From Patescibacteria group bacterium (GTDB taxonomy: Bacteria; Patescibacteriota; Minisyncoccia; Minisyncoccales; JAHCRE01): DNA of 43,480 nucleotides. Position numbers and translations under genes: made by a program. Position 1 is the first letter of the stretch. Each line of letters opens with the position of its first letter. Shown in pieces: positions 1,948 to 43,480 of this stretch. Location: contig JAHCRE010000013.1 in assembly GCA_020148145.1 (NCBI GenBank), positions 1-43,480 of the forward strand, written 5' to 3'. Below the pieces are notes generated by a model that had not been told where the DNA came from, made no database searches, and was given only the letters and a program-made list of their open reading frames with translations.

Positions 1948-3696
1948 ATGAGAATTGAACCAAGACAATTAAAAGCCTTTCTTTTAGATGCTGGTTTGGT
2001 GACTAAAGAGCAATTTGAAAAAGCCCTAAAAAAAGCGGAAAAAAATAGACAGAGGGTCGGCGATGTTTTAGTTTCTGAAGGTTTAATTACCCAGGAGGAA
2101 TTAATCAAGCTCGAGGCCTATATTCTGGGAATTCCCTTTATTGACTTAGAAAAGCAGAAAATCTCACCTGAAATTTTAAAGATTATTCCTGAACCAATTG
2201 CCAGATCCCATAATATTGTTGCTTATAGAAAAAAAGGGAAAAAATTAGAAGTAGCCATGCTAGATCCAGAAGATTTAAGGACTATTGAGTTCATTAAAAA
2301 GAAGGCCAATCTGAGGATTTTACCAAGACTAACCACCCCAGATTCTATTAAAAATGTTTTGCGTCAATACCAAAAGACTTTGGAGGCTGAATTTGGAGAG
2401 ATAATAAAAAAAGAGGTTGGGGAAATAATTCCAATAAGAGAAGAAGAGATGGTGGAAGAAAAAGAGGAACTAAAAAAAGTAGCCGAGGAATTACCAGTCA
2501 TTCGGATTGTTGACACTTTGTTAAAGCACGCCGTTTTACAGAGAGCTTCTGATATTCATATAGAACCAACAGAAAAAGAGGTAATAATTAGATATCGAAT
2601 TGATGGAATTTTACGTGATGCCATGGTTCTTCCAAAACAGGCCAGTTCAGGAGTTGTAGCCAGAATTAAAGTCCTCTCTCGTCTAAAATTGGATGAACAT
2701 CGACTCCCCCAAGATGGCCGGTTTAAAATTGAAACTGAGGAATATCGCTATTCTCTTCGAGTTTCCATTCTCCCAGTTTTTAATGGAGAGAAGATTGTCA
2801 TGAGATTATTACCAGAAAAGGCTAAAGCCTTCACTTTAGAAGGTCTAGGACTGAGGGGGGAAGCCCTAGAAAGAATTCAAACTAATTTAAGAAAACCAGT
2901 AGGAATGATTTTGGTTACTGGCCCTACTGGCTGTGGAAAAACCACAACTTTGTATGCCATGATGGAGATTTTAAATACTCCGGCAGTTAATATTTCAACC
3001 GTTGAAGACCCAATCGAATATCGAATGCCAAGAATCAATCAGACCCAGGTTAATCCCAAGATAGGTTTGACTTTTGCCTCAGGATTAAGAGCTTTTGTTA
3101 GGCAAGATCCAGATATTATTATGGTTGGGGAAATTAGAGATAATGAAACCACTGCCTTAGCTATTAATGCTAGCTTGACCGGACATTCAGTTTTATCAAC
3201 TTTACATACCACTAATGCTGCTGGCGCCGTTCCTCGATTAATCGATATGAAGGCTGAACCATTTCTGATTTCCTCAACTTTAAATTGCATTTTAGCCCAA
3301 AGATTGGTCAGAAGATTTTGTAAAGAAAAAGAAAAATACAATCCATCAGAATCAGAAATAGAAAATTTAAAAAAATATTGCGATTTGGATAGAATTTTGC
3401 AAATTTTAAGAGAAGAAAAGCTGATTAAAAAAGATCAAACCTTTAAAGACATTGAATTTTATCGGCCAAAGTCCTCAAAAGAATGCCCAGAAGGTTATAA
3501 GGGCCGAATTGGAATCTTTGAAGTTTTACCAGTTACTGAAACTATAAAAGAGTTAATTGTGAAACAGGCTACTTCTGACCAGATTCAGGTCCAGGCCCAG
3601 AAAGAAGGGATGAGAACAATGATTGAAGATGGATTTTTAAAGGCTGCCCAGGGAATAACCTCAATCGAGGAAGTGTTAAGAGTTATAATTGAGTAA
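1948..3696 (+). CDS. pilB: Type IV pilus assembly ATPase PilB (GspE family)
   Basis: This 582-aa protein powers pilus extension from the cytoplasmic face of the membrane. The N-terminal 150 residues form a GspE/MshEN-type domain (GLVTKEQFEKAL). The C-terminal ATPase has Walker A (GPTGCGKTT), an Asp-rich segment around EDPIEY and a Walker B region (DIIMVGEIRD). The usual paired CxxC zinc motif is reduced to scattered cysteines (RRFC, KYC, KECPEGYKGR). It starts the pilus operon and is followed by a family A repeat before pilC. Confidence 0.95.
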   Translation: MRIEPRQLKAFLLDAGLVTKEQFEKALKKAEKNRQRVGDVLVSEGLITQEELIKLEAYILGIPFIDLEKQKISPEILKIIPEPIARSHNIVAYRKKGKKLEVAMLDPEDLRTIEFIKKKANLRILPRLTTPDSIKNVLRQYQKTLEAEFGEIIKKEVGEIIPIREEEMVEEKEELKKVAEELPVIRIVDTLLKHAVLQRASDIHIEPTEKEVIIRYRIDGILRDAMVLPKQASSGVVARIKVLSRLKLDEHRLPQDGRFKIETEEYRYSLRVSILPVFNGEKIVMRLLPEKAKAFTLEGLGLRGEALERIQTNLRKPVGMILVTGPTGCGKTTTLYAMMEILNTPAVNISTVEDPIEYRMPRINQTQVNPKIGLTFASGLRAFVRQDPDIIMVGEIRDNETTALAINASLTGHSVLSTLHTTNAAGAVPRLIDMKAEPFLISSTLNCILAQRLVRRFCKEKEKYNPSESEIENLKKYCDLDRILQILREEKLIKKDQTFKDIEFYRPKSSKECPEGYKGRIGIFEVLPVTETIKELIVKQATSDQIQVQAQKEGMRTMIEDGFLKAAQGITSIEEVLRVIIE

Positions 3697-3697
3697 A

Positions 3698-3952
3698 AAC
3701 CCATATCGGAAGAGGGTCGGTCAAGACGCGAGGCTTCTCCGCGAAACCTGCGAAGCGGGTTGAGTCGGAAAGCCCCGTCTGGGAAACCTTTCGGTTTCCC
3801 CGTATAGGAAAATATTAAAAACCGAAGGGACGCGAGAGTTCTTAGCTCTGCGGAAACTCCCGTCCTAGGGTTTTTAAAGAGCGAGCCCGAAACCCAAAGG
3901 GCGCCAGCCGAAGGCTGGGAGAGGGCGAGCGATCTAAATCTGTAGTACCACT
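3698..3952 (+). repeat. Family A structured GC-rich element, copy 1
   Basis: The core is 3698-3935. The remaining 17 nt up to the pilC ATG also resemble copy 2. It is far richer in GC than its surroundings and has no credible ORF. Helices visible include GGGAAACC/GGTTTCCC at about 3780, a long compound stem with outer arms AAAAACC/GGTTTTT, and CCAGCC/GGCTGG near the end. It lies between the pilB stop and pilC start, so it is probably transcribed with the operon. Function unknown. Confidence 0.9.
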
Positions 3953-11258: not shown

Positions 11259-11331
11259 GGTGGCTATAGTGTAATGGTTAGCACTGGAACCTGTGGAGTT
11301 CCCGGAGGCGGTTCGAATCCGCTTAGCCACC
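11259..11331 (+). tRNA. tRNA-His(GTG)
   Basis: The anticodon stem GGAAC/GTTCC encloses CTGTGGA (anticodon GTG). The acceptor GTGGCTA pairs with TAGCCAC. The extra G at -1 and C73, both identity elements of tRNA-His, are present in the DNA. Confidence 0.95.
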
Positions 11332-11343
11332 TGCCGTTAGTAG

Positions 11344-11368
11344 CCCCGAGAGTTTTTCTCGGGGTTTT
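11344..11368 (+). terminator. Terminator after tRNA-His (repeat unit copy 1)
   Basis: CCCCGAGA and TCTCGGGG form a perfect 8-bp stem followed by TTTT. The same hairpin and the 25 nt after it, up to and including a TATAAT, recur at 13027-13076. A variant is at 12315. Confidence 0.9.
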
Positions 11369-11387
11369 GGTTTGCGGGCGAGTAGGG

Positions 11388-11393
11388 TATAAT
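11388..11393 (+). promoter_or_regulatory. -10 box of the gene at 11407
   Basis: TATAAT lies 13 nt before the ATG. A Shine-Dalgarno-like AAAGGAG lies between the two, unlike most genes here. Confidence 0.6.
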
Positions 11394-11406
11394 AAAGAAA
11401 GGAGAT

Positions 11407-12279
11407 ATGACTACAAAAACAAAAATCTTAATTGGGATTTTAGTAGTTATTAATATTTTGATCTTTGGAAATTTAATATATTGGATTGTTATTCCACCAC
11501 CTCCACCCCTTCCTCGTGCGCAAGATGCACGCGCAATCGCTGATATGAGCCAAATGAAAGTTAAAGCCGAAATGGTTTATGAGGAAGAAAGAAACTATAC
11601 TAGTCTCGATTGTGACCACGACGAGGATATGAGAATGTTGTGCAACGATATTGAAAAACAAGTAGGCGTTAAACCAACTATCCATCAATCTGAAAAAGAA
11701 TACTGTGCTTATGTTAAGTTGAATAAGGGAGAATATTTTTGTATAGATAGTGCTGGAACCATTGAAGAAACTATCATAAATCCTGGTAAAATAAACTACT
11801 GTGATGGTACGACTTTTATCTGCCTAAGAAAACAAGAACCAGAAAATGAAACTGCTGATTGGAAGACTTATAGGAATGAATTATGGGGTTACGAGATTAG
11901 GTATCCTGAGAAATTTTATTTAATAGAGGATAAACGCTTCAGTATTAGAATTAGTAATGTGTCAGATCCATGGCCTCAAGATCTAGGTCCCCACGAAAAA
12001 GCTACTATAGATATTTACCGTTTTCCAAATGAAGAAAATCATTCTTTGGACTATCTTCTTTCTCATCAAGTCGATTTTATAGGAGGCAAAAAAATTATAA
12101 TAGGAAAAGAAACCGCAGTAAGAAAAATTAACGAAGAATTCCCTGGGATATTTACATATTTTGTGCAAGACGATGGTTATATCTATGTGTTGCGTGGAGC
12201 AAGTAGCACTGAGGAGAATTTTGCCCAATACCGTGAATTAATTGAGAAAATCGAGGATACTTTTAGATTTTTATACTAA
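11407..12279 (+). CDS. Membrane-anchored protein with pilin-like segment and C-terminal domain
   Basis: I do not recognise a named family for this 290-aa protein. An N-terminal helix (about residues 6-29) is followed by a proline run and ARAIADMSQMKVKAEMVYEE, which resembles the region after the helix in type IV pilin-like proteins, but no prepilin cleavage site is seen. Six cysteines lie between about residues 68 and 138. The C-terminal part begins WKTYRNELWGYEIRYPEKF, a pattern common in surface lipoproteins and PsbP-like domains of Parcubacteria. It is likely exported and attached to the membrane. It is the first gene of a run of separately promoted membrane genes. Confidence 0.7.
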   Translation: MTTKTKILIGILVVINILIFGNLIYWIVIPPPPPLPRAQDARAIADMSQMKVKAEMVYEEERNYTSLDCDHDEDMRMLCNDIEKQVGVKPTIHQSEKEYCAYVKLNKGEYFCIDSAGTIEETIINPGKINYCDGTTFICLRKQEPENETADWKTYRNELWGYEIRYPEKFYLIEDKRFSIRISNVSDPWPQDLGPHEKATIDIYRFPNEENHSLDYLLSHQVDFIGGKKIIIGKETAVRKINEEFPGIFTYFVQDDGYIYVLRGASSTEENFAQYRELIEKIEDTFRFLY

Positions 12280-12302
12280 ACAGGTTCTAACATCGTCCAC
12301 TA
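12278..12302 (+). repeat. tRNA-end-like repeat, copy 1
   Basis: AAACAGGTTCTAACATCGTC followed by CACTA overlaps the stop codon of the upstream gene and leads directly into a C-rich stretch and terminator. The same sequence recurs at 13276 and 14063. Confidence 0.8.
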
Positions 12303-12314
12303 CCCGCCGCCCGC

Positions 12315-12340
12315 CCCCCGAGAGTTTTTCTCGGGGGTTT
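12315..12340 (+). terminator. Terminator (repeat unit variant)
   Basis: CCCCCGAGA and TCTCGGGGG form a 9-bp stem followed by TTT, a variant of the hairpin at 11344. Confidence 0.85.
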
Positions 12341-12347
12341 ATTGTGC

Positions 12348-12353
12348 TATGAT
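12348..12353 (+). promoter_or_regulatory. -10 box of the gene at 12362
   Basis: TATGAT ends 8 nt before the ATG, so the transcript should be leaderless. Confidence 0.55.
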
Positions 12354-12361
12354 AGAAGAAT

Positions 12362-12916
12362 ATGAAAAGAGAAAATAATCAAATATTAAAGATAGTTAAA
12401 AAACCAGAAAGCATCTTTTTGTTATTATTAGTGACCCTGGGTTTGTTACCACAATTAGCTTTAGCGGATATTATTTTAATTCCAAATGACATATGGCCCC
12501 AGTTTCATATTCTTATCTTATTTTTAGCCATTGATATAATATTCAATTTTTTTGTAGCAGCTAAATTTTTCTCATTATTTGGGGAAAATATTTCAGCTAA
12601 AAGAACTTCTATTTATTTTATTGCTATTCTCATTATCACACTAAGTGGCATAGTAATTAATTGGTTTGTAGGCCCAATAATTGGATGGAGAACGGGGGTT
12701 TTTGGGCGTGATTACATTATTAATCTTATAAGGAGAGCAGTTATGTCTGTTGGACAAATTATCCTCTTCCCACTTGTGTTTCCTTTATTCAAACTCAGTA
12801 ATAAGAAAACCGCTTTCAAGGTAGGCTTAGCTACCGTAATTATTGGATTTCTAGTGGGTTGTGTGATAGCAGTCTTTTATATCGGCCCAGGAATAACGCC
12901 AATAATGGGGCTATAA
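12362..12916 (+). CDS. Multi-pass membrane protein, unknown function
   Basis: The 184-aa protein has about five hydrophobic segments (near residues 18-36, 48-70, 80-103, 124-142 and 154-175). The first ends in LALADI and could be a cleaved signal peptide. No family motif was recognised. It has its own promoter and no ribosome binding site, and stands in the cassette-like run between 11332 and 14400. Confidence 0.7.
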   Translation: MKRENNQILKIVKKPESIFLLLLVTLGLLPQLALADIILIPNDIWPQFHILILFLAIDIIFNFFVAAKFFSLFGENISAKRTSIYFIAILIITLSGIVINWFVGPIIGWRTGVFGRDYIINLIRRAVMSVGQIILFPLVFPLFKLSNKKTAFKVGLATVIIGFLVGCVIAVFYIGPGITPIMGL

Positions 12917-13014
12917 TCTTACATAATTTCTAATAATTCCTTCATTTGCCCTAAAATCACCTCAGGATATTCGTATATTTTCATCCATCTCAAGGAGAGA
13001 AAATCGTCCCACCC
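12917..13014 (-). pseudogene. Possible gene remnant on the minus strand
   Basis: The minus strand here translates to an open, protein-like tail that includes DDFLSLRWMKIYEYPEVI and ends at a TAA. No upstream part exists, because the frame runs into a C-rich repeat. It may be the 3' end of a lost gene. The parent family is not recognised and the call is weak. Confidence 0.3.
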
Positions 13015-13026
13015 GGGGAGCCGTCA

Positions 13027-13051
13027 CCCCGAGAGTTTTTCTCGGGGTTTT
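13027..13051 (+). terminator. Terminator (repeat unit copy 2)
   Basis: It is the same CCCCGAGA/TCTCGGGG hairpin with TTTT as at 11344, and the match continues through the TATAAT of the next promoter. Confidence 0.9.
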
Positions 13052-13070
13052 GGTTTGCGGGCGAGTAGGG

Positions 13071-13076
13071 TATAAT
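13071..13076 (+). promoter_or_regulatory. -10 box of the gene at 13085
   Basis: A perfect TATAAT ends 8 nt before the ATG. It is part of the repeated terminator-promoter block also found at 11344-11393. Confidence 0.6.
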
Positions 13077-13084
13077 TAAACAAT

Positions 13085-13273
13085 ATGAACTTCCTAAAAC
13101 CAGACTGGAGAAAGATTGTGATATTTGTAATTTTATTTTTTATCAGTATTTTACTCCAACCTGTTGAACCTCAGCCTTCTTTAATGAGCTATGTTGTATT
13201 TGGTTTAATTCCTTCATATCTCCTTTCCTGTCTCACAATCTGGATTTACGACAAAATCACGAAGAAACCTTAA
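13085..13273 (+). CDS. Small two-helix membrane protein
   Basis: The 62-aa protein has two hydrophobic helices (about residues 11-24 and 36-55) and lysine-rich ends. Its start, MNFLKPDWRK, resembles that of the 35-aa protein at 14221 (MNLLKDQRTDWK), so the two may be related. Function is unknown. Confidence 0.6.
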   Translation: MNFLKPDWRKIVIFVILFFISILLQPVEPQPSLMSYVVFGLIPSYLLSCLTIWIYDKITKKP

Positions 13274-13274
13274 T

Positions 13275-13307
13275 CAAACAGGTTCGAACATCGTCCACTA
13301 GGGGACC
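13275..13307 (+). repeat. tRNA-end-like repeat, copy 2
   Basis: CAAACAGGTTCGAACATCGT followed by CCACTAGGGGACC. The GTTCGAA core and the ACCA at the end resemble a T loop and a tRNA 3' end, but no T stem forms. Confidence 0.8.
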
Positions 13308-13322
13308 AATCGAAAAAAGAAT

Positions 13323-13342
13323 CGCCAAGAAGGCGGTTTTTT
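13323..13342 (+). terminator. Short terminator
   Basis: CGCC/GGCG stem with an AAGAA loop and a run of six T residues, placed between the repeat and the next promoter. Confidence 0.65.
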
Positions 13343-13344
13343 GG

Positions 13345-13350
13345 TAGAAT
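13345..13350 (+). promoter_or_regulatory. -10 box of the gene at 13359
   Basis: TAGAAT ends 8 nt before the ATG, the same spacing as at 13071 and 14207. Confidence 0.5.
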
Positions 13351-13358
13351 AGGATAAT

Positions 13359-14018
13359 ATGGAACAGGCTAGACTACCGATAAAAACAAAGATTGCCGCC
13401 TGGTGGATGATGGCAATCGGAGGACTAGGTTCAGTTGTATCTATAAGGACGGCAATAATGGGAAGACTTGGAGGCGTATTGATATTACCTAGCTTATTTT
13501 TCCTTCTTCTCCCCGGCTTTTTTCTTTTGCAAAGAAAAAAATGGGCTTGGACCTATGCTACTATAATACTTTTTATAGGAATAGCAATATTTACTTACGT
13601 TGTTATTGATAATTTTTTGTTTTTCGGTTTTGAGTCAGACTTTCTTTTTTTTATTTTTCCGCTTGTTATCCTTTTACCTTCCTTTATTCTCTTACTTCTT
13701 GACCGCAAGAATTATTGGGAAACTGCTGTTCCGTCAATGGTTGGATATGAACCAATCATTAAAATAACGAAGGCTGTAGAAAAAGGCCAGCTATCAACAG
13801 GAAGAAGAATTGCTGGTTGGATAATGGTAGTTTTTGGAGGGTGCGGAATACTAGGTGGTTTAGGAGCGCTCTTTTTTGCATTTCTAGGATCGTGGCATGT
13901 TGCGGGAGCGGGGGTAGGCATCTTCGTCCTCTCCTTATTGATTATAGGATTTATATTAGTTTTTATAGGGTCATTACTTTTTATTTGTGGCCTCCTTCTT
14001 TTAAGAAGAAAAATATGA
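13359..14018 (+). CDS. Multi-pass membrane protein, unknown function
   Basis: The 219-aa protein has about six hydrophobic segments in two groups of three, separated by a polar stretch (about residues 112-150). Each group begins similarly (IKTKIAAWWMMAIGGLGSV and STGRRIAGWIMVVFGGCGIL), which suggests an internal duplication. No catalytic motif is visible. It belongs to the cassette-like run of membrane genes. Confidence 0.65.
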   Translation: MEQARLPIKTKIAAWWMMAIGGLGSVVSIRTAIMGRLGGVLILPSLFFLLLPGFFLLQRKKWAWTYATIILFIGIAIFTYVVIDNFLFFGFESDFLFFIFPLVILLPSFILLLLDRKNYWETAVPSMVGYEPIIKITKAVEKGQLSTGRRIAGWIMVVFGGCGILGGLGALFFAFLGSWHVAGAGVGIFVLSLLIIGFILVFIGSLLFICGLLLLRRKI

Positions 14019-14061
14019 GCTTGGCGAATTTCAACCCTTCCTTTTTTATTTAAACCCCCAC

Positions 14062-14095
14062 CAAACAGGTTCTAACATCGTCCACTAGGGGACCC
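14062..14095 (+). repeat. tRNA-end-like repeat, copy 3
   Basis: CAAACAGGTTCTAACATCGT followed by CCACTAGGGGACC, near-identical to the copies at 12278 and 13275. Confidence 0.8.
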
Positions 14096-14119
14096 CCTTT
14101 TAATTTCGCTCAGGATAGG

Positions 14120-14190
14120 CTACTACCCGAGAGGTTAAGGACCCGCTTATGGAAGGGTGATCGGGAGGATTGTAGTCTCGGACTTTTGTT
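14120..14190 (+). other. Possible degenerate tRNA-like sequence
   Basis: GGCTAC and GTAGTC can pair as an acceptor-like stem (one G-T pair). Between them lies CCCGAGAGGTTAAGG, typical of the D arm of long-arm tRNAs, and a stem ACCC/GGGT. No T arm is present, so it is probably a decayed tRNA. Confidence 0.3.
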
Positions 14191-14206
14191 TTGTAGATAA
14201 TTAAGT

Positions 14207-14212
14207 TATAAT
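14207..14212 (+). promoter_or_regulatory. -10 box of the small gene at 14221
   Basis: A perfect TATAAT ends 8 nt before the ATG. Confidence 0.55.
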
Positions 14213-14220
14213 AAAACAAT

Positions 14221-14328
14221 ATGAATCTTCTAAAGGACCAACGAACTGACTGGAAACTTCTTTTAGTTGTGGCTGTTTTAGCCACTATTGTTGGGGGATG
14301 GACCTTGTGGTTGTCAGTCTCAATTTAA
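14221..14328 (+). CDS. Very small membrane protein (35 aa)
   Basis: The frame encodes MNLLKDQRTDWK, then a single hydrophobic helix (LLLVVAVLATIVGGWTLWL), then a stop. It has a promoter with the same geometry as its neighbours and an N-terminus similar to the protein at 13085. It may be a real small protein or a truncated paralogue. Confidence 0.5.
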   Translation: MNLLKDQRTDWKLLLVVAVLATIVGGWTLWLSVSI

Positions 14329-14363
14329 ACTCCGGATAATTGCTGGTATAATATTCAAGACTT

Positions 14364-14388
14364 AGAACCTGTTTACCAAATAGGTTCT
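14364..14388 (+). repeat. Inverted partial copy of the tRNA-end-like repeat
   Basis: AGAACCTGTTT is the reverse complement of the start of the repeats at 12278, 13275 and 14062. It pairs, with one mismatch, with AAATAGGTTCT just after it. It marks the right end of the cassette-like run. Confidence 0.55.
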
Positions 14389-14470
14389 TTGCCTTCATTT
14401 CCTCCCCCGCTAAAGCTTCAAAGAACAAGAGAACTTTGGCGAATAAAGTAATATCGTTCAGTCAAAAATA

Positions 14471-25110: not shown

Positions 25111-25366
25111 AACCCAAATCGGAGAGGGGTCGGTCAAGACGCGAGGCTTCTTCGCGAAGCCTGCGAAGCGGATTGAGTCGGAAAGCCCCGCCTGGGAGAA
25201 CCTTCCGGTTCTCCCGTGTAGGAAAATATTAAAAACCGAAGGGACGCGAGAGTTCTTAGCTCTGCGGAAACTCCCGTCCTAGGGTTTTTAAAGAGCGAGC
25301 CCGAAGCCCAAAGGGCGCCAGCCGAAGGCTGGGAGAGGGCGAGCGATCTCTCTATGTATTACTACT
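25111..25366 (+). repeat. Family A structured GC-rich element, copy 2
   Basis: The core 25111-25349 matches copy 1 at about 94-95% (about 13 differences). The hairpin near 25195 is GGGAGAACC/GGTTCTCCC here against GGGAAACC/GGTTTCCC in copy 1, so the two arms change together. The last 17 nt before the ATG at 25367 also resemble those before pilC (TAYYACTATG-like ending), so the element reaches the start codon. Confidence 0.9.
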
Positions 25367-28998: not shown

Positions 28999-29526
28999 GT
29001 GGAAAAGGGATTTCTAAATCCAAAAAAAGTTTTAAATCAAATTAAACTAAGGAAAAATATGATTGCTGCTGATTTTGGCTCAGGTTCTGGTGGTTGGGCA
29101 ATACCTTTGGCGAAAAGGTTGAAAGATGGAAAAGTTTTTGCTATTGATATCTTAGAGGAGCCTTTATCGGCCTTAAAAAGTAAAGCCGAAATTGAGAGGA
29201 TTTCAAATATTGAGACAGTTCTCTCTGATGTGGAAAGGGAAAATGGTTCAAAATTAGCTAATAATTTTTTAGACTTGGTTTTAATGACCAATCTTTTATT
29301 TGAGATAGAGGATAAAAAATTAGTAATGTCTGAGGCTAAAAGAGTATTAAAAAAAAGAGGGAAAATTTTGATTGTTGATTGGAAACCTGAGGTTTCTCTA
29401 GGTCCAAAAAAAGGAAGAGTTGCCCTAAAAGATATAAAAAAAATAGCCGAAGACCTTGATTTAAAATTAAAAAAAGAGTTTACAGCTGGGGCTTACCATT
29501 ATGGATTAATATTTTCTAAGCCATAA
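28999..29526 (+). CDS. Class I SAM-dependent methyltransferase
   Basis: The 175-aa protein has the SAM-binding glycine loop DFGSGSGGW (motif I), an acidic residue after the second strand (VFAIDI) and the motif IV/post region LVLMTNLLFEI. The substrate is unknown. The frame begins with GTG 28999. The last nine codons (HYGLIFSKP) are echoed 3' of the adjacent family B element as HYGLIFTRT with a stop. Confidence 0.85.
   Translation: MEKGFLNPKKVLNQIKLRKNMIAADFGSGSGGWAIPLAKRLKDGKVFAIDILEEPLSALKSKAEIERISNIETVLSDVERENGSKLANNFLDLVLMTNLLFEIEDKKLVMSEAKRVLKKRGKILIVDWKPEVSLGPKKGRVALKDIKKIAEDLDLKLKKEFTAGAYHYGLIFSKP
29495..29520 (+). repeat. Left copy of the tail duplication at B copy 1
   Basis: These 26 bp encode the C-terminal HYGLIFSK of the methyltransferase. 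They match 29674-29699 at 22 of the first 24 positions. Confidence 0.85.
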
Positions 29527-29530
29527 TGGC

Positions 29531-29675
29531 ACAGAGGGGGTCGGGGAGATTGGGTAGGGGCCCGCGTCTGAAGCGGGAGGGTGGCGGGTGGGTGGCGCGT
29601 CCCCGTATAGGAAAACAGCGAGCGAATGAAATGAGCGAGAGTTAGAAACCGTGGGTTTCTAAGGAGCAAAGCGAC
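29531..29675 (+). repeat. Family B structured GC-rich element, copy 1
   Basis: It begins ACAGAGGGGGTCGGGG and ends GGAGCAAAGCGAC. Visible helices are CCCGC/GCGGG, TTAGAAACC/GGTTTCTAA, and the end-to-end pair GGTCG/CGACC. It contains the core CCCCGTATAGGAAAA shared with family A. It lies directly after the methyltransferase stop codon. Confidence 0.85.
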
Positions 29676-29705
29676 CATTATGGCTTAATATTTACTAGAA
29701 CTTAG
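29674..29705 (+). repeat. Right copy of the tail duplication at B copy 1
   Basis: It reads CAT TAT GGC TTA ATA TTT, then ACT AGA ACT TAG, encoding HYGLIFTRT and a stop. It begins immediately after the GCGAC end of the element. Confidence 0.8.
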
Positions 29706-30131: not shown

Positions 30132-30530
30132 ATGAGTAAAGTCATTTCAGTTCTAGTCTTAGTAAGTCTTTTGACTTTTTTGGTATTGCCAATGGTAGCC
30201 CTAGCCCAGGACACATGTACCTTAGAGGAAGATTTGTCTGATATTCATCCAGATTGTACAGCAGGTTCAGAAGTAGACCTAGATACGTATGGGATGTGTT
30301 GTTTAGTGAATTCAATCTATGTTGTTACTAAATGGTTAACCTTTATTATAGGGGGTGTTGTTGGGCTTATGATAATTGCCGGAGCATTTATGATTGTAAC
30401 AGCAGGTGGTAATCCAGAGAAAGTGACCTCTGGAAGAAATCTTATTTTGTATGCAGTAATAGGTATGGTAGTTGCCCTTTTTGCCAGGGCTATTCCAGCC
30501 ATTGCAAAGGCAATTCTAGGAATAGGATAA
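30132..30530 (+). CDS. VirB2-like small pilin protein, paralogue 1
   Basis: The 132-aa protein has a signal peptide ending in ALAQ, a mature N-terminus with four cysteines (DTC, PDC, MCC) and two helices around VTAGGNPEKVTSGRN. It is closely related to the next gene, including long stretches of identical DNA. The cysteines suggest disulfides or a metal site outside the cell. Confidence 0.75.
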   Translation: MSKVISVLVLVSLLTFLVLPMVALAQDTCTLEEDLSDIHPDCTAGSEVDLDTYGMCCLVNSIYVVTKWLTFIIGGVVGLMIIAGAFMIVTAGGNPEKVTSGRNLILYAVIGMVVALFARAIPAIAKAILGIG

Positions 30531-30642: not shown

Positions 30643-31032
30643 ATGAACAAAATTATTTCGGTTTTAGCTCTGGTAGGTCTTTTAGTTTTGCCAATGGTAG
30701 CCCTAGCCCAAGATACATGTCACTTAGAGGAAGATTTGACCGAGATTGACCCGACCTGTACAAGCGGTTCAGACGTAGATCTAGATACGTATGGGATGTG
30801 TTGTTTAGTGAATTCAATCTATATTCTTACTAAATGGCTAACTTTTATTATAGGGGGTGTTGTTGGGCTTATGATAATTGCCGGAGCATTTTTGCTTGTG
30901 ACGGCAGGTGGAGCACCTGATAAGGTAAGCACTGGGAGAAATTATATTTTGTATGCAGTAATAGGTATGGTAGTTGCCCTTTTTGCCAGGGCTATTCCAG
31001 CCATTGCCAAAAGGCTAGTAGGAATATACTAG
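30643..31032 (+). CDS. VirB2-like small pilin protein, paralogue 2
   Basis: The 129-aa protein has the same layout as its upstream neighbour: signal peptide, four cysteines, two helices. The centre (TYGMCCLVNSIY and FIIGGVVGLMIIAGAF) is almost identical, while the N-terminal loop and C-terminus differ. The 3' flanks of the two genes also match in part (CGGAAAGAAC), so the duplication included the downstream region. A strong terminator follows. Confidence 0.75.
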   Translation: MNKIISVLALVGLLVLPMVALAQDTCHLEEDLTEIDPTCTSGSDVDLDTYGMCCLVNSIYILTKWLTFIIGGVVGLMIIAGAFLLVTAGGAPDKVSTGRNYILYAVIGMVVALFARAIPAIAKRLVGIY

Positions 31033-34705: not shown

Positions 34706-35914
34706 TTAGTTTATTCTCAGGTTTGCTTTAACTTTAATTTCTCGCCAAGTTCTCTTTTTTCCTTTTAGCAAATGGCAATAGGCAGTTATTCCTGTCATTA
34801 CCGCATTATCAGTGCAGTATTTAGTATCAGGTATCAAGCATTTGGTATTTGGCAAATTTTTCTTAATAATTTTTTGGAATTGTTTGCGCAATTCTTCGTT
34901 AGCAGTAACCCCACCGCCAAGCATTATAGTTTTTACTTTATATTCTTTAGCTGCCCTGAGAGTTTTTCTAATTAAGACATCAATTATTGCCTGTTGGGTT
35001 TCAGCACACATTTTTCGGATATATTTTTTTGACCTCTGGGTTTTTTCAGATTGACTTTTAAAATTATATAAAACTGCCGTTTTTAAACCAGAGAAGCTGA
35101 AGTCATAATCTTTAGAATTAATCATCGGTCTTGGTAACTTAATTCGGTTATTGGTCATTGGGGTGGGGGATTTCCATTGCTTGGCAATCTGGGCAATAGC
35201 TGGCCCTCCGGGGTAGCCAAGCCCTAAAATTCTGGCTACTTTGTCAAAGCATTCTCCAGCCGCATCATCCCTTGTCTCGCCTAAAATTTTGTATTTTCCA
35301 AAACCTTTCATTAAAATCAGCTGAGTGTGTCCGCCACTTACCACTAAACAAACCGCAGGAAAAATATTTTTGAGATTTGAGATTTGCCACCTGAGATTTG
35401 AGCTAACTGGTGGAAGCCAGTTAGCGAGGATGTGAGCCTCAATATGATTAATTGGTAAAATTTTTAATCCCCAGAAATAAGCTAGGGCCTTGGCAAAGTT
35501 TACTCCTACCCACAGACAAGGTTCTAGTCCTGGCCCAATTGTTATCGTAATTAAATCAATTTTTGGTTTTTTATAATCCCTTAAAAATTTTTTTAATTTT
35601 TCAAAAAGATATTCTTCTCGCTCCAAAATTTTTTCTAAATTTTTAATTCTAAGTTTATTTTTTACTTTTTGATTTTTGATATTTGATTTTAGTAATCTCG
35701 ATTCCATTAAGACCTGTTTTAATACTGGAACAAGATTGTGCTGATGTTCTCGTTTAGCCAAACTTGGATAGACTCCCCCCCACTTTCTGTGAATTTTTAC
35801 TTGGGACGAGACAATATTGGATAAAATTTTAAAGCGAAGCCTTTTTTTTCCTAAAGCTAAAATTAAAGCAATACAAGTATCGTCACAGGATGTCTCAATT
35901 GCTAAAATAATCAT
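34706..35914 (-). CDS. tsaD: tRNA threonylcarbamoyladenosine synthase subunit TsaD
   Basis: The protein (402 aa from ATG 35914) makes the universal t6A37 modification of ANN-decoding tRNAs. Motifs are MIILAIETSCDDT, GGVYPSLAKREHQHN, the metal site HIEAH, and the glycine-rich VVSGGHTQL and MLGGGVTANEEL. It is longer than the usual 340 aa because of two AT-rich insertions (around LLKSNIKNQKVKNKLRIKN and SNLRWQISNLKN); a third repeat-like tract at 34823-34858 encodes NTKCLIPDTKYC. An upstream in-frame start at 35953 adds only a lysine-rich tail. Confidence 0.94.
   Translation of the reverse strand: MIILAIETSCDDTCIALILALGKKRLRFKILSNIVSSQVKIHRKWGGVYPSLAKREHQHNLVPVLKQVLMESRLLKSNIKNQKVKNKLRIKNLEKILEREEYLFEKLKKFLRDYKKPKIDLITITIGPGLEPCLWVGVNFAKALAYFWGLKILPINHIEAHILANWLPPVSSNLRWQISNLKNIFPAVCLVVSGGHTQLILMKGFGKYKILGETRDDAAGECFDKVARILGLGYPGGPAIAQIAKQWKSPTPMTNNRIKLPRPMINSKDYDFSFSGLKTAVLYNFKSQSEKTQRSKKYIRKMCAETQQAIIDVLIRKTLRAAKEYKVKTIMLGGGVTANEELRKQFQKIIKKNLPNTKCLIPDTKYCTDNAVMTGITAYCHLLKGKKRTWREIKVKANLRIN
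35365..35405 (-). repeat. AT-rich repeat inside tsaD
   Basis: The tract is built from repeated GAGATTTG units (plus strand) and encodes SNLRWQISNLKN. A related tract lies at 35655-35705 and a similar one in valS at 32690-32720. Confidence 0.55.
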
Positions 35915-35983
35915 ATATATACCTATCTTAAATTTTTCCTTGCCTTTTTTCAATCTTTTTGCTAAATTTAATTTAGCAAAAAA

Positions 35984-36149
35984 ACAGAGGGGGGTCGGGG
36001 GAACTGGGTGGGGGCCCGCGAAGCGGGAGGGTGGCGGGTGGGTGGCGTCCCCCGCATAGGAAGACAGGGAGGAGTGAAGCGACGACTGCCAGAAACCGAG
36101 GGTGTCTGGGGAACGGTGTTAGTGGAGCAAAGCGACGCGTACCGCGACC
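35984..36149 (+). repeat. Family B structured GC-rich element, copy 2
   Basis: It has the same 5' domain (GGGGGGTCGGGG, CCCGCGAAGCGGG) and the hairpin CCAGA/TCTGG, but the right end is longer and repeats GCGAC twice. The flanks show no clear tail duplication, so it may be an older copy. It lies between the divergent tsaD start and the tRNA block. Confidence 0.8.
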
Positions 36150-36399: not shown

Positions 36400-37953
36400 A
36401 TGGAAGAAGATTATTATCTTAAAGTTAATCGGGCCTCTGATTTAAAGGATTCAAAAGAAAGGGCGCTTTTTAGGTTTTTTGAGATTTTTCCAGGATTGAT
36501 ATCCTGGGGAACATTAATTTTAGTAATTATTCTCTCCTGGCAGAAACCTTTTTTTGTTGCTATTTTTATTATTTTTTTCGTGATATACTGGTTTTTCCGA
36601 ACAATTTATCTTTCCTTTCACCTTCGATCTGGGTTTAAAAGAATGAAAGAGCACGAGAATACCAATTGGCTAGAGAGACTTAATCAACTGAAAAATAGAA
36701 ATTGGAAAAATATTTATCATTTGATCATTTTCCCAATGTATAAAGAGCCTCTGGAAATTGCTAGGGAGACTTTTAGAGCCTTAGAAAATACTGATTATCC
36801 TAAGGATAAAATGATTGTGGTTTTAGCTTGTGAAGAAAGAGCAGGGGAGAAAGCAAAAAAAACAGCTAAAATTATTGAAAAAGAATTTGGAAAAAAATTT
36901 TTTAAATTCTTAATCACTTTTCATCCAGCAAATTTACCAGGAGAAATTGCTGGTAAGGGTTCAAACGAAGCCTGGGCGGCAAAAAGGGTAAAAGAGCTTT
37001 TAATAGATCCTCTAAAAATTCCCTATCGAAATATCATTTTTTCTTCTTTTGATACTGATACCTGTGTTTTCCCGAAATATTTTAGTTGTTTAACCTATCA
37101 TTATTTAACCTTAAAGAGGCCCGCTAGAACCAGTTTTCAACCTGTCCCCCTTTTCATTAATAATATCTGGCAGGCCCCTAGTATTTCTCGAATTTTTTCT
37201 TTCTCCTCAACTTTCTGGCATACTATGAACCAAGAAAGGCCAGAAAAACTGATTACTTTTTCTTCCCATTCAATGAGTTTTAAAACTCTAGTTGATGTTG
37301 ATTTTAAACAAAAAAATGTTGTTTCAGACGATTCAAGAATTTTTTGGCAGTGCTTTCTGAAATATGATGGAGATTATAATGTTCAACCTCTCTATTATCC
37401 AGTTTCAATGGATGCTAATGTAGCCAAAAGTTTTTGGAGAACATTAATTAACATTTATAAACAACAAAGGAGATGGTCTTATGGAGTAGGGGATATACCC
37501 TATTTTCTTTTTGGCTTTTTTAAAAATAAAAAAATCCCAATATCCAAAAAATTTTCTCTGGGATTTGAGTCAATTGAGGGTCACTGGTCTTGGGCCACTG
37601 CCTCTATTTTAATCTTTCTCTTGGGGTGGCTACCTTTGATTTTAGGGGGAGAAGAGTTTTCCCAAACCTTAATTTCTTATAACTTACCAATAATAACAAG
37701 AAATATCTTGACCATAACTATGATAGGTTTAGTAGGTTCTGCTTATTTTAGTCTCCTTTTACTTCCTCCTCGGCCACCCAAATATGGTCGGTTTAAATTC
37801 TTGATTTTAATCTTCCAATGGTTGTTCCTGCCCTTGACTATGATATTTTTTAGTTCCCTTCCAGCCTTAGATGCTCAGACCAGGTGGATGTTAGGGAAAT
37901 ACATGGGTTTTTGGCCGACCGAGAAAATCCGAAAGAATTTCGAAGGAGGCTAA
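36400..37953 (+). CDS. Membrane glycosyltransferase, family 2
   Basis: The 517-aa protein has two N-terminal membrane helices (about residues 32-68), a cytosolic GT-A domain and three or four C-terminal helices (from about residue 395). Catalytic features are SSFDTDTC (DxD), the acid in VVSDDSR and QQRRW, the motif of cellulose-synthase-like enzymes that add sugars to a growing chain at the membrane. The product is unknown. Its C-terminal FWPTEKIRKNFEGG is echoed as FWPTEKIRQ with a stop after the following family B element. Confidence 0.85.
   Translation: MEEDYYLKVNRASDLKDSKERALFRFFEIFPGLISWGTLILVIILSWQKPFFVAIFIIFFVIYWFFRTIYLSFHLRSGFKRMKEHENTNWLERLNQLKNRNWKNIYHLIIFPMYKEPLEIARETFRALENTDYPKDKMIVVLACEERAGEKAKKTAKIIEKEFGKKFFKFLITFHPANLPGEIAGKGSNEAWAAKRVKELLIDPLKIPYRNIIFSSFDTDTCVFPKYFSCLTYHYLTLKRPARTSFQPVPLFINNIWQAPSISRIFSFSSTFWHTMNQERPEKLITFSSHSMSFKTLVDVDFKQKNVVSDDSRIFWQCFLKYDGDYNVQPLYYPVSMDANVAKSFWRTLINIYKQQRRWSYGVGDIPYFLFGFFKNKKIPISKKFSLGFESIEGHWSWATASILIFLLGWLPLILGGEEFSQTLISYNLPIITRNILTITMIGLVGSAYFSLLLLPPRPPKYGRFKFLILIFQWLFLPLTMIFFSSLPALDAQTRWMLGKYMGFWPTEKIRKNFEGG
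37909..37934 (+). repeat. Left copy of the tail duplication at B copy 3
   Basis: These bases encode FWPTEKIRK at the end of the glycosyltransferase and match 38110-38135 at 23 of 26 positions. Confidence 0.85.
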
Positions 37954-37957
37954 AAAC

Positions 37958-38109
37958 CAGAAAGGGGGTCGGGGGAACTGGGCAGGGACCCGCGAAGCGG
38001 GAGGGTGGTGGGTGGGTGGCGTCCCCCGTGTAGGAAAACAGCGACTCTCCGAAGCCTTAGCGAAGGATGAAAGCGCCAGAAACCGTGGGTGTCTGGGGAG
38101 CGAAGCGAC
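37958..38109 (+). repeat. Family B structured GC-rich element, copy 3
   Basis: It has GGGGGTCGGGG, CCCGCGAAGCGGG, the core CCCCGTGTAGGAAAACAG, the hairpin CCAGAAACC/GGTGTCTGG and the end GGAGCGAAGCGAC. It starts just after the glycosyltransferase stop codon. Confidence 0.85.
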
Positions 38110-38139
38110 TTTTGGCCGACTGAGAAAATTCGACAATAA
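38110..38139 (+). repeat. Right copy of the tail duplication at B copy 3
   Basis: Directly after GCGAC the sequence reads TTT TGG CCG ACT GAG AAA, then ATT CGA CAA TAA, encoding FWPTEKIRQ and a stop. Two of the differences from the left copy are synonymous (ACC/ACT, ATC/ATT). Confidence 0.85.
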
Positions 38140-42290: not shown

Positions 42291-43355
42291 ATGATTCGAT
42301 TCCCTTTTAAAATCGCATCTAAAAGATGTTTGGGGATAGATATTGGAACATCGAGTATCAAAATTGTTGAGTTGTCTCTCCGGGGAGAGAAAGTAAAATT
42401 AGAAAGATATGGTGAAATAGCGGTTCAAACCCTTTATGAAAAACCATTCCGAACTTCTGAAAAAAGTACCCTTTTACTCTCTAGTCGAGATATTGCCCGG
42501 GCAATCTCAGCTGTTTTAAAAGAAACAAAAATTTCAGAAAGAAAAACTATTTTCTCCATTCCTGATTTCTCCAGTTTCTTTACCAATTTTGAACTGCCAC
42601 CAATGACTAAAGAAGAAATAGCCGAGGCAGTAAGATTTGAGGCCCGACATCATATTCCTCTTCCTTTATCTGAGATAGTTTTAGACTGGTCAATAGTCGG
42701 AGGAGTAGTTGACCAAAAAAAAACTCCTCTGAAAATATTATTAGTCGCCGTTCCAAAAAGTATTATTTCCCAATATCAACAAATAGCAATTCTGGCCAAT
42801 CTCGAAATTAAAGCCCTAGAGGCAGAAGCATTTGCACTGGTAAGATCTTTAGTTAAAGAGGATAAAAGAGTAATTGCCTTGTTAGATATTGGAGCCCAGA
42901 GTACTACCGTCAGCATTATTGATCAGGGAATTTTAAAAATATCACATAGCTTTGATGTTTCAGGAAATGAATTGACCCAAATGATATCTAAATCTCTGAA
43001 TGTTGATTATAAAAAAGCAGAAAATTTAAAAAAAGAATACGGGTTAATACCTTCAGAGAGAAATATTAGAGAAATTTTAATCCCCTTGATTGATTTAATT
43101 TTAATTGAAATGGAAAAAACCTCTCGGACCCTATATGGAGCTGAAAAAAAAGAAATCCAAAAATTTATTATAGCTGGAGGAATAGCCTTGCTTCCTGGTC
43201 TAAAAGAATATCTCACAGAAGGTCTCAAAAAAGAAGTAGAAATTGCTAATCCCTTTTCCAATATTTTATATCCCCCAATCCTTGAAAAAACTTTAAAGGA
43301 AATAGGGCCTAGTTACGCAATAGCAGTAGGTGTGGCTCTAAGGGGACTAGAATAA
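42291..43355 (+). CDS. Second PilM-like type IV pilus protein
   Basis: The 354-aa protein has the same actin-like fold as the pilM product at 8528: LGIDIGTSSIKIVELS, ALLDIGAQSTTVSIID and IIAGGIALLPGLKEYL. The conserved RFEARHHIPLPLSEIVLDW segment also matches PilM. Identity with the first copy is moderate, so it is a diverged paralogue. A family A element begins at its stop codon. Confidence 0.88.
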   Translation: MIRFPFKIASKRCLGIDIGTSSIKIVELSLRGEKVKLERYGEIAVQTLYEKPFRTSEKSTLLLSSRDIARAISAVLKETKISERKTIFSIPDFSSFFTNFELPPMTKEEIAEAVRFEARHHIPLPLSEIVLDWSIVGGVVDQKKTPLKILLVAVPKSIISQYQQIAILANLEIKALEAEAFALVRSLVKEDKRVIALLDIGAQSTTVSIIDQGILKISHSFDVSGNELTQMISKSLNVDYKKAENLKKEYGLIPSERNIREILIPLIDLILIEMEKTSRTLYGAEKKEIQKFIIAGGIALLPGLKEYLTEGLKKEVEIANPFSNILYPPILEKTLKEIGPSYAIAVGVALRGLE

Positions 43356-43480
43356 TCGGAGAGGGGTCGGTCAAGACGCGAGGCTTCTCCGCGAAGCCTG
43401 CGAAGCGGATTGAGTCGGAAAGCCCCGTCTGGGAAACCATTCGGTTCTCCCGTATAGGAAAATATTAAGAACCGAAGGGA
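43354..43480 (+). repeat. Family A structured GC-rich element, copy 3 (cut by window edge)
   Basis: The visible 127 nt match copies 1 and 2 from AATCGGAGAGGGGTCGGTC onward, including GGGAAACC/GGTTCTCCC and the core CCCGTATAGGAAAATATTA. The first bases overlap the TAA stop of the second pilM. Confidence 0.88.

Follow-up and report, generated by a model that had tools for sequence, protein, structure and literature searches.

The 43,480-nucleotide contig JAHCRE010000013.1 of a Patescibacteria group bacterium (order Minisyncoccales), referred to below as the window, harbors three copies (family A) of a short, non-coding and highly structured sequence, which very probably belongs to a family of mobile or integrating elements. 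The finding is real and larger than first reported: the original prediction, made from the letters of the window, had described a conserved intergenic element, whose structured, non-coding and repeated nature was retained, whereas the notion of a merely conserved spacer was not. Indeed, the orthologous junctions of the sister genus are empty, the repeat family is order- to phylum-wide, and heterologous gene ends are duplicated at its sites, so that the sequence has to be regarded as an inserted, mobile element. Its mobility is well supported, the mechanism is not; on balance, we lean towards gene-less integrating DNA elements of Patescibacteria, in which a target-matched unit would fold as a single strand and be recombined in trans, the function of the target gene being preserved. 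The three family A copies of the window, and the parts of the first one, are as follows.

3698..3952, plus strand: family A copy 1, complete, between the stop of a gspE/pilB-like gene (ending at 3696) and the pilC ATG (3953); empty in the sister genus.
3781..3800, plus strand: hairpin P2 of copy 1, GGGAAACC TTTC GGTTTCCC; covariation, with 8 of 9 pairs altered on both sides.
3801..3814, plus strand: conserved linker CGTATAGGAAAATA, near-invariant in 112 members.
3815..3877, plus strand: hairpin P3, TTAAAAACC (3815-3823) with GGTTTTTAA (3869-3877); covariation; encloses an optional nested hairpin module of about 41 bp.
3921..3952, plus strand: 3' end GAGGGCGAGCGAT and start leader ending TAGTACCACT, directly 5' of ATG; common to all family A copies and to other genera.
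25111..25366, plus strand: family A copy 2, complete, directly 5' of the ATG (25367) of a metallo-hydrolase (Lactamase_B_3) gene.
43355..43480, plus strand: family A copy 3, truncated at the contig end, immediately 3' of pilM.

The prediction of three copies on the same strand was thus borne out. The comparison of copy 1 with copy 2 over 255/256 nucleotides shows 16 mismatches and three gap columns; the 237-nucleotide core alone contains 11 mismatches and three gap columns, close to the 13 or so differences in 239 positions that had been anticipated. The hairpin that had been said to change on both arms does so (GGGAAACC/GGTTTCCC versus GGGAGAACC/GGTTCTCCC). Dinucleotide shuffles fold less well than either copy (z of -3.0 and -3.4), in agreement with the proposed high degree of structure, and no open reading frame (ORF) of at least 80 amino acids exists inside the element. 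What has to be abandoned is the interpretation of this identity as conservation above that of neutral spacer DNA: a BLAST search with copy 1 against its own genome retrieved about 13 copies with at least 90% identity, plus partial ones, and the similarity of copies 1 and 2 is therefore due to recent copying within the genome, not to purifying selection on a spacer. The repeat breaks the assembly, which is why several copies are located at the ends of contigs. Contigs C13/C5 and C12/C6 of the source genome (G000) are broken inside family A copies, and their joining is suggested by the gene order (pilM-pilN and rpsC-rplP, respectively); contig C5 probably begins, upstream of pilN, with the remainder of copy 3.

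Almost every family A copy has the orientation of the gene downstream and stops precisely at the ATG of that gene (consensus GCGAYTAACTTTGTATTACCACT followed by ATG). The copies of the window lie between a stop codon and the next ATG and contain a start leader of their own (TATTACCACT followed by ATG; leader TAACTTTGTATTACCACT), without a Shine-Dalgarno sequence. In G001, the genome of the sister genus, the orthologous junctions lack the element, reading gspE-TAAAATG-pilC (copy 1), pilM-TAAAATG-pilN (copy 3), and TAAGATG before rpsN; the sites of the hydrolase (copy 2), dcd, rplP, rpsQ, pilT, and rpoA are empty as well, and a different, truncated member is found at the fusA site. The emptiness of the orthologous junctions identifies family A as an insertion directly before start codons, i.e., as a start-adjacent subtype that brings its own leader, with which it replaces the context otherwise given by coupling, a promoter or a Shine-Dalgarno sequence. 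In a few cases, family A is present at the same site in other genera, namely at those of the hydrolase (L169, where the orthologous gene carries a diverged member), rpsN (L124), and nusG (L132). A leaderless promoter embedded in TGTATTACCACT-ATG is not favoured, in that the most conserved bases (ACCACT) fall outside a -10 box and the second base, which is the critical one, is in most cases G. Lastly, rpmF and a gene for an Rrf2-type regulator (L191:7743, minus strand, and L177:2666) begin with the family A leader (TGTAATACCACTATG and TGTATTACCACTATG) with no recognisable core upstream; these leader-only starts may be either relics or a native start motif.

The core shared by all members, defined by comparing copies from the source genome and its relatives, consists of two hairpins around TAGGAAAAYA. 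In the order in which they occur, its parts are purines followed by GGGGTCGG, hairpin P2, the linker CGTRTAGGAAAAYA, an optional hairpin, hairpin P3 (consensus YTARAAACC-GnG-GGTTTYTAA), RGAGCG, variable hairpins, and GCGAY. In some copies, the core is expanded by nested hairpins, and the length of the element ranges from about 80 to 260 bp across the family. In the 112 aligned members, 97.6% of the pair cells are standard pairs and 14 of the 18 pairs have changed on both sides; compensatory cells number 213, versus 62 (standard deviation 12) in shuffles, and the signal is lost when the pairing partners are slid. G-U pairs are absent from P3 and rare in P2, versus 3.6-5.6% in tRNA stems from related loci, which is suggestive of a fold that is under selection as DNA, or kept up as DNA through hairpin copying. 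The palindromic module of about 41 bp (GGGACGCGAGAGTT..CGGAAACTCCCGTCC) that occupies the P3 loop of copy 1 (3824-3868) is missing from other copies; it is also found in L030, L035 and L044, elsewhere in the element, and on its own at G000:C9:27657, so that it looks like a nested repeat in its own right.

The covariance-model search that the original prediction had called for revealed how far the family extends. A model of the core (whose underlying alignment, A2, includes one duplicated row) detected 41 copies in the 0.81-Mb (809-kb) source genome, which is 96%-complete, as well as copies in 83 of the 247 genomes of the order and, at E<=1e-6, in 23 of 379 genomes of the phylum, other classes included. 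A strict pattern scan of 84,980 species genomes returned 58 stretches, and all the record titles that name a group name Patescibacteria. Tandem units exist at L036, L122 and L160. The family appears, from these comparisons, to be undescribed, since no match to a described one was found; nor was any earlier description met in the open-access literature, most subscription papers lying outside that search. The Rfam covariance models likewise agree with the assertion that no known RNA family is involved: none, HEARO included, reaches the gathering threshold for the element, the window yields tRNAs only, and an ordinary Rfam RNA was rejected because nothing matches even at E<=10. As regards a possible relationship to the ends of an insertion sequence, which had been named as the other outcome that would tell against novelty, four hallmark transposase and reverse transcriptase families were tested, and none is present in the genome. 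A virus or a plasmid as the vector was discarded as well, no matches to the element having been found in the viral contigs, phages and plasmids searched.

Most of the copies not belonging to family A share a different arrangement, which can be written as T - arm - core - T'. Here, T is the end of the neighbouring gene (the start, in the case of reversed copies), the arm corresponds to the reverse complement of the initial 7-16 nucleotides of T, and T', starting right after GCGAC, repeats that gene end in a second version. With T, the gene is complete; T' represents a displaced second end. T/T' direct repeats scoring at least 16 are present in 43% of the non-A copies versus 1% of mismatched pairs. 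The arm is complementary to T (score of at least 9) in 86% of 36 cases versus 7% of controls, and in the same 36 cases it fits T better than T' 29 times, the opposite being true twice. The tRNA genes are cut in the T-loop, where integrase sites are often located.

The differences between T and T' are largely silent: in 14 coding pairs, 70 codon changes are synonymous and 28 non-synonymous, against 83% non-synonymous expected without constraint. This pattern implies that the two ends diverged mostly as coding sequence in different lineages, and the comparison indicates that one of them is foreign, coming from another lineage; it also led us to reject, for coding sites, the idea that the target site was simply duplicated and then decayed neutrally. 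Where a gene-end copy has an ortholog in G001, the site there is empty in most cases. At the nusG site, the data suggest that T' is the older functional start.

Three diverged members, which had not been linked to family A, are also located in the window (29530-29675, 35984-36148, and 37958-38109).

29496..29529, plus strand: T (gene end, about 29496-29519), then the inverted arm GCCATAATGG (29520-29529) of the following member.
29530..29675, plus strand: gene-end member; same insertion at the orthologous gene in G001.
29676..29699, plus strand: T', displaced second gene end CATTATGGCTTAATATTTACTAGA; decayed in G001.
35984..36148, plus strand: family member adjoining the start of a reverse-strand gene (34706-35953).
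37909..37957, plus strand: T (3' end of the gene 36400-37953) running into a short inverted arm, AAAAAC.
37958..38109, plus strand: gene-end member; site empty in G001.
38110..38133, plus strand: T', second copy of the gene end, TTTTGGCCGACTGAGAAAATTCGA; over these bases identical to the gene end of the sister genus.

The member at 29530 is the one shared with G001, where T' has decayed and contains an in-frame stop, the core has been kept, and P3 has changed yet is still paired. Since the core outlived T', T' itself is dispensable. The same in-frame stop, together with mismatches in some tRNA T' sequences, speaks against RNA splicing joining the gene body to T', which was rejected.

How such units might integrate can be outlined only tentatively, and we hold the following scheme, based on a folded strand, to be plausible but short of probable. 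The integrating unit, formed by a gene end (T), the target-complementary arm and the core, would arrive as horizontally acquired DNA. As a single strand, its arm would pair with the target sequence across the core, giving one long hairpin capped by the core, and a recombinase acting in trans, possibly a resident Xer-type enzyme, would recombine the folded strand with the homologous gene end. With the gene end restored, or a start leader supplied, by the unit, essential genes would tolerate the insertion. The enzymatic repertoire of the source genome favours an integration of this kind: no reverse transcriptase (RVT_1, PF00078), no Y1 (HUH) transposase (PF01797, with positive controls), no IS110-type recombinase (PF01548) and no TnpB/Cas12f-like protein (PF07282; IscB-specific models were not run) was detected, leaving only an Xer-like tyrosine recombinase (G000:C11:44557-45087) and a second one. 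The latter, of 352 amino acids, is encoded at G000:C24:7365-8420 (L218/L219); among 246 genomes of the order it has a single match, a weak one, whereas contig C17 carries an N-terminal relative, and C24 is possibly a virus, plasmid or contaminant contig. A dedicated integrase encoded on C24 was rejected in view of that single weak relative.

Several points weigh against this interpretation. The features of a folded recombination site, i.e., a conserved fold with the target in the stem, are displayed by the gene-end copies only; family A has neither the arm nor the T/T' pair, and the two types of site may not share one mechanism. Similarly, attL/attR-like repeats with a restored gene end are present as in integrase-type elements, but an integrase gene of their own is absent. 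No dedicated recombinase emerged beyond the two enzymes just mentioned, no excised or circular form was seen, and no gene-bearing or long autonomous form occurs within 5 kb of the copies. The origin of the foreign partner is mixed when compared with G001, T being closer for three genes and T' for one, with two ties. Finally, the argument drawn from G-U pairs is indirect, and the sequences compared are related.

The main competitor, which we consider rather unlikely, is a host-domesticated cis element of ancient spread, that is, a set of 5' leader or intercistronic RNAs controlling the translation or the RNA processing of the next gene. It would account for the sense position of family A directly 5' of ATG, with a conserved leader and no Shine-Dalgarno sequence, for the few orthologous genes carrying family A in several genera, and for the structure kept at the old site shared with G001 (member 29530). 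The empty sites of the sister genus do not fit it, nor do the gene-end and tRNA copies lying downstream of or antisense to genes, the unrelated nature of the target genes, and the near absence of G-U pairs.

It is also unlikely that the element is a passive repeat, spread by ordinary homologous recombination of gene-plus-spacer DNA from relatives, with T' as the right homology arm. In this way, the heterologous T/T' pairs could be explained without any enzyme, as could the patchy difference at trxB (L161), where 42 and about 28 identical nucleotides flank a diverged patch; the presence, within a single genome, of over 20 family A copies preceding unrelated genes would remain unexplained, as would the target-matched arms and the tandem units.

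We regard as quite improbable a guide-directed homing, in which the arm (as RNA or single-stranded DNA) would guide a nuclease or recombinase, acting in trans, to the gene end lacking the insertion, with subsequent repair copying from the donor allele, along the lines of homing endonucleases, wRNA systems or IS110 bridge RNAs. Foreign gene ends are the trace expected from such a process, and the arm is target-specific, adjoins a conserved scaffold and follows the codon choice of its own gene end, as seen for rpsG in three genomes. However, the intact target remains in T, so that the inserted allele would be cut too, the arm is only 7-16 nucleotides long and is missing from family A, and the genome contains no IS110, TnpB/Cas12f or Y1 protein.

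Very little can be said for a retroelement resembling short interspersed elements, whose structured RNA would be reverse-transcribed into a nicked target by an enzyme supplied in trans, the staggered nick duplicating T and the snap-back of the cDNA making the arm: it accounts for the inverted target copy and T/T' without an ORF, and some T/T' pairs are identical (41 nucleotides at L178; L122), but no RVT_1 protein is present, duplication in place does not give synonymous divergence at coding sites, and several tRNA sites have, after T, a sequence that is not matched by anything after T'.

The folded-strand integration proposed here can also be set beside known systems. Integrase junctions at gene ends show a T/T'-like layout, and T and T' resemble the attL and attR of integrase islands and phages at tRNA or gene 3' ends, which likewise target the tRNA T-loop; the present family differs in using many target sequences, in lacking an integrase gene and in having an inverted target copy beside the core. 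Integron attC sites and the folded attP of CTXphi likewise have a hairpin at the exchange point, with two inverted arms enclosing a conserved cap that is left unpaired, but no integron core motifs were recognised, the stem sequence of the element varies with the target gene, and recombination is in this case what we infer. Repetitive extragenic palindromic sequences and their mosaics (REP/BIME), miniature inverted-repeat transposable elements and Rickettsia palindromic elements are also short, ORF-free, palindromic, present in multiple copies and dependent on enzymes in trans; differently from them, the genome studied here has no Y1/RAYT protein, no constant terminal inverted repeats were seen, and the sites combine heterologous gene ends with a conserved two-hairpin core. 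The vicinity of a structured scaffold to a short target-matching sequence recalls the IS110 bridge RNA and the wRNA of TnpB/IscB, from which the element is distinguished by its single arm of 7-16 nucleotides, by the lack of IS110 or TnpB proteins in the genome and by the absence of any Rfam match, HEARO included. TIGR-Tas arrays (PMC12045711) were rejected, the element not being an array and no box C/D layout having been seen in it. A layout matching T/T' is that of the gene-end-replacing mobile ORFs (mORFs) of fungal mitochondria (atp6, atp9, cox2, nad3), in which the host gene acquires a foreign C-terminal coding piece and its own C-terminus comes to lie displaced downstream, with largely synonymous differences (PMC3630166). 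In the present family, one of T and T' is heterologous, and it may be either of them; mORFs, however, encode a homing endonuclease (PMC3630166), whereas the element is ORF-free, about 80-260 bp long, provided with a conserved folded core and a target-complementary arm, and inserted also at tRNAs and start codons.

Two other features of the window can be mentioned. Following tRNA-His, the region 11259-14420 contains a cassette-like array, in which a terminator (CCCCGAGAG..CTCGGGG) and a TATAAT promoter are combined with an ORF whose family is unknown and with the repeat AAACAGGTTCTAACATCGTCCACTAGGGGACC. This repeat, similar to a tRNA 3' end that has been displaced, exists in three copies (12267, 13265, and 14052); the array looks like gene cassettes added in series. 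The small adjacent ORFs 30132-30530 and 30643-31032 are diverged tandem duplicates (300 nucleotides at 86%).

The genomes of Patescibacteria are very small, and that studied here lacks the common transposase families tested, yet it harbors at least 41 copies of the element, some of them inside ribosomal operons. As a still more tentative generalization, the family might consist of phylum-wide gene-less elements that carry a replacement gene piece together with a short arm complementary to the target, their integration taking place in the form of folded single strands through host recombination, with family A as a domesticated subtype acting as a portable start-codon leader. If this is true, a mobile element enters essential genes harmlessly by bringing along the gene end, and gene ends have been moved between lineages, which would disturb gene trees; the family may also reveal a target-complementary integration route needing no transposase gene in the element. 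The start-adjacent subtype, in turn, makes testable how genes devoid of a Shine-Dalgarno sequence start translation in this phylum.
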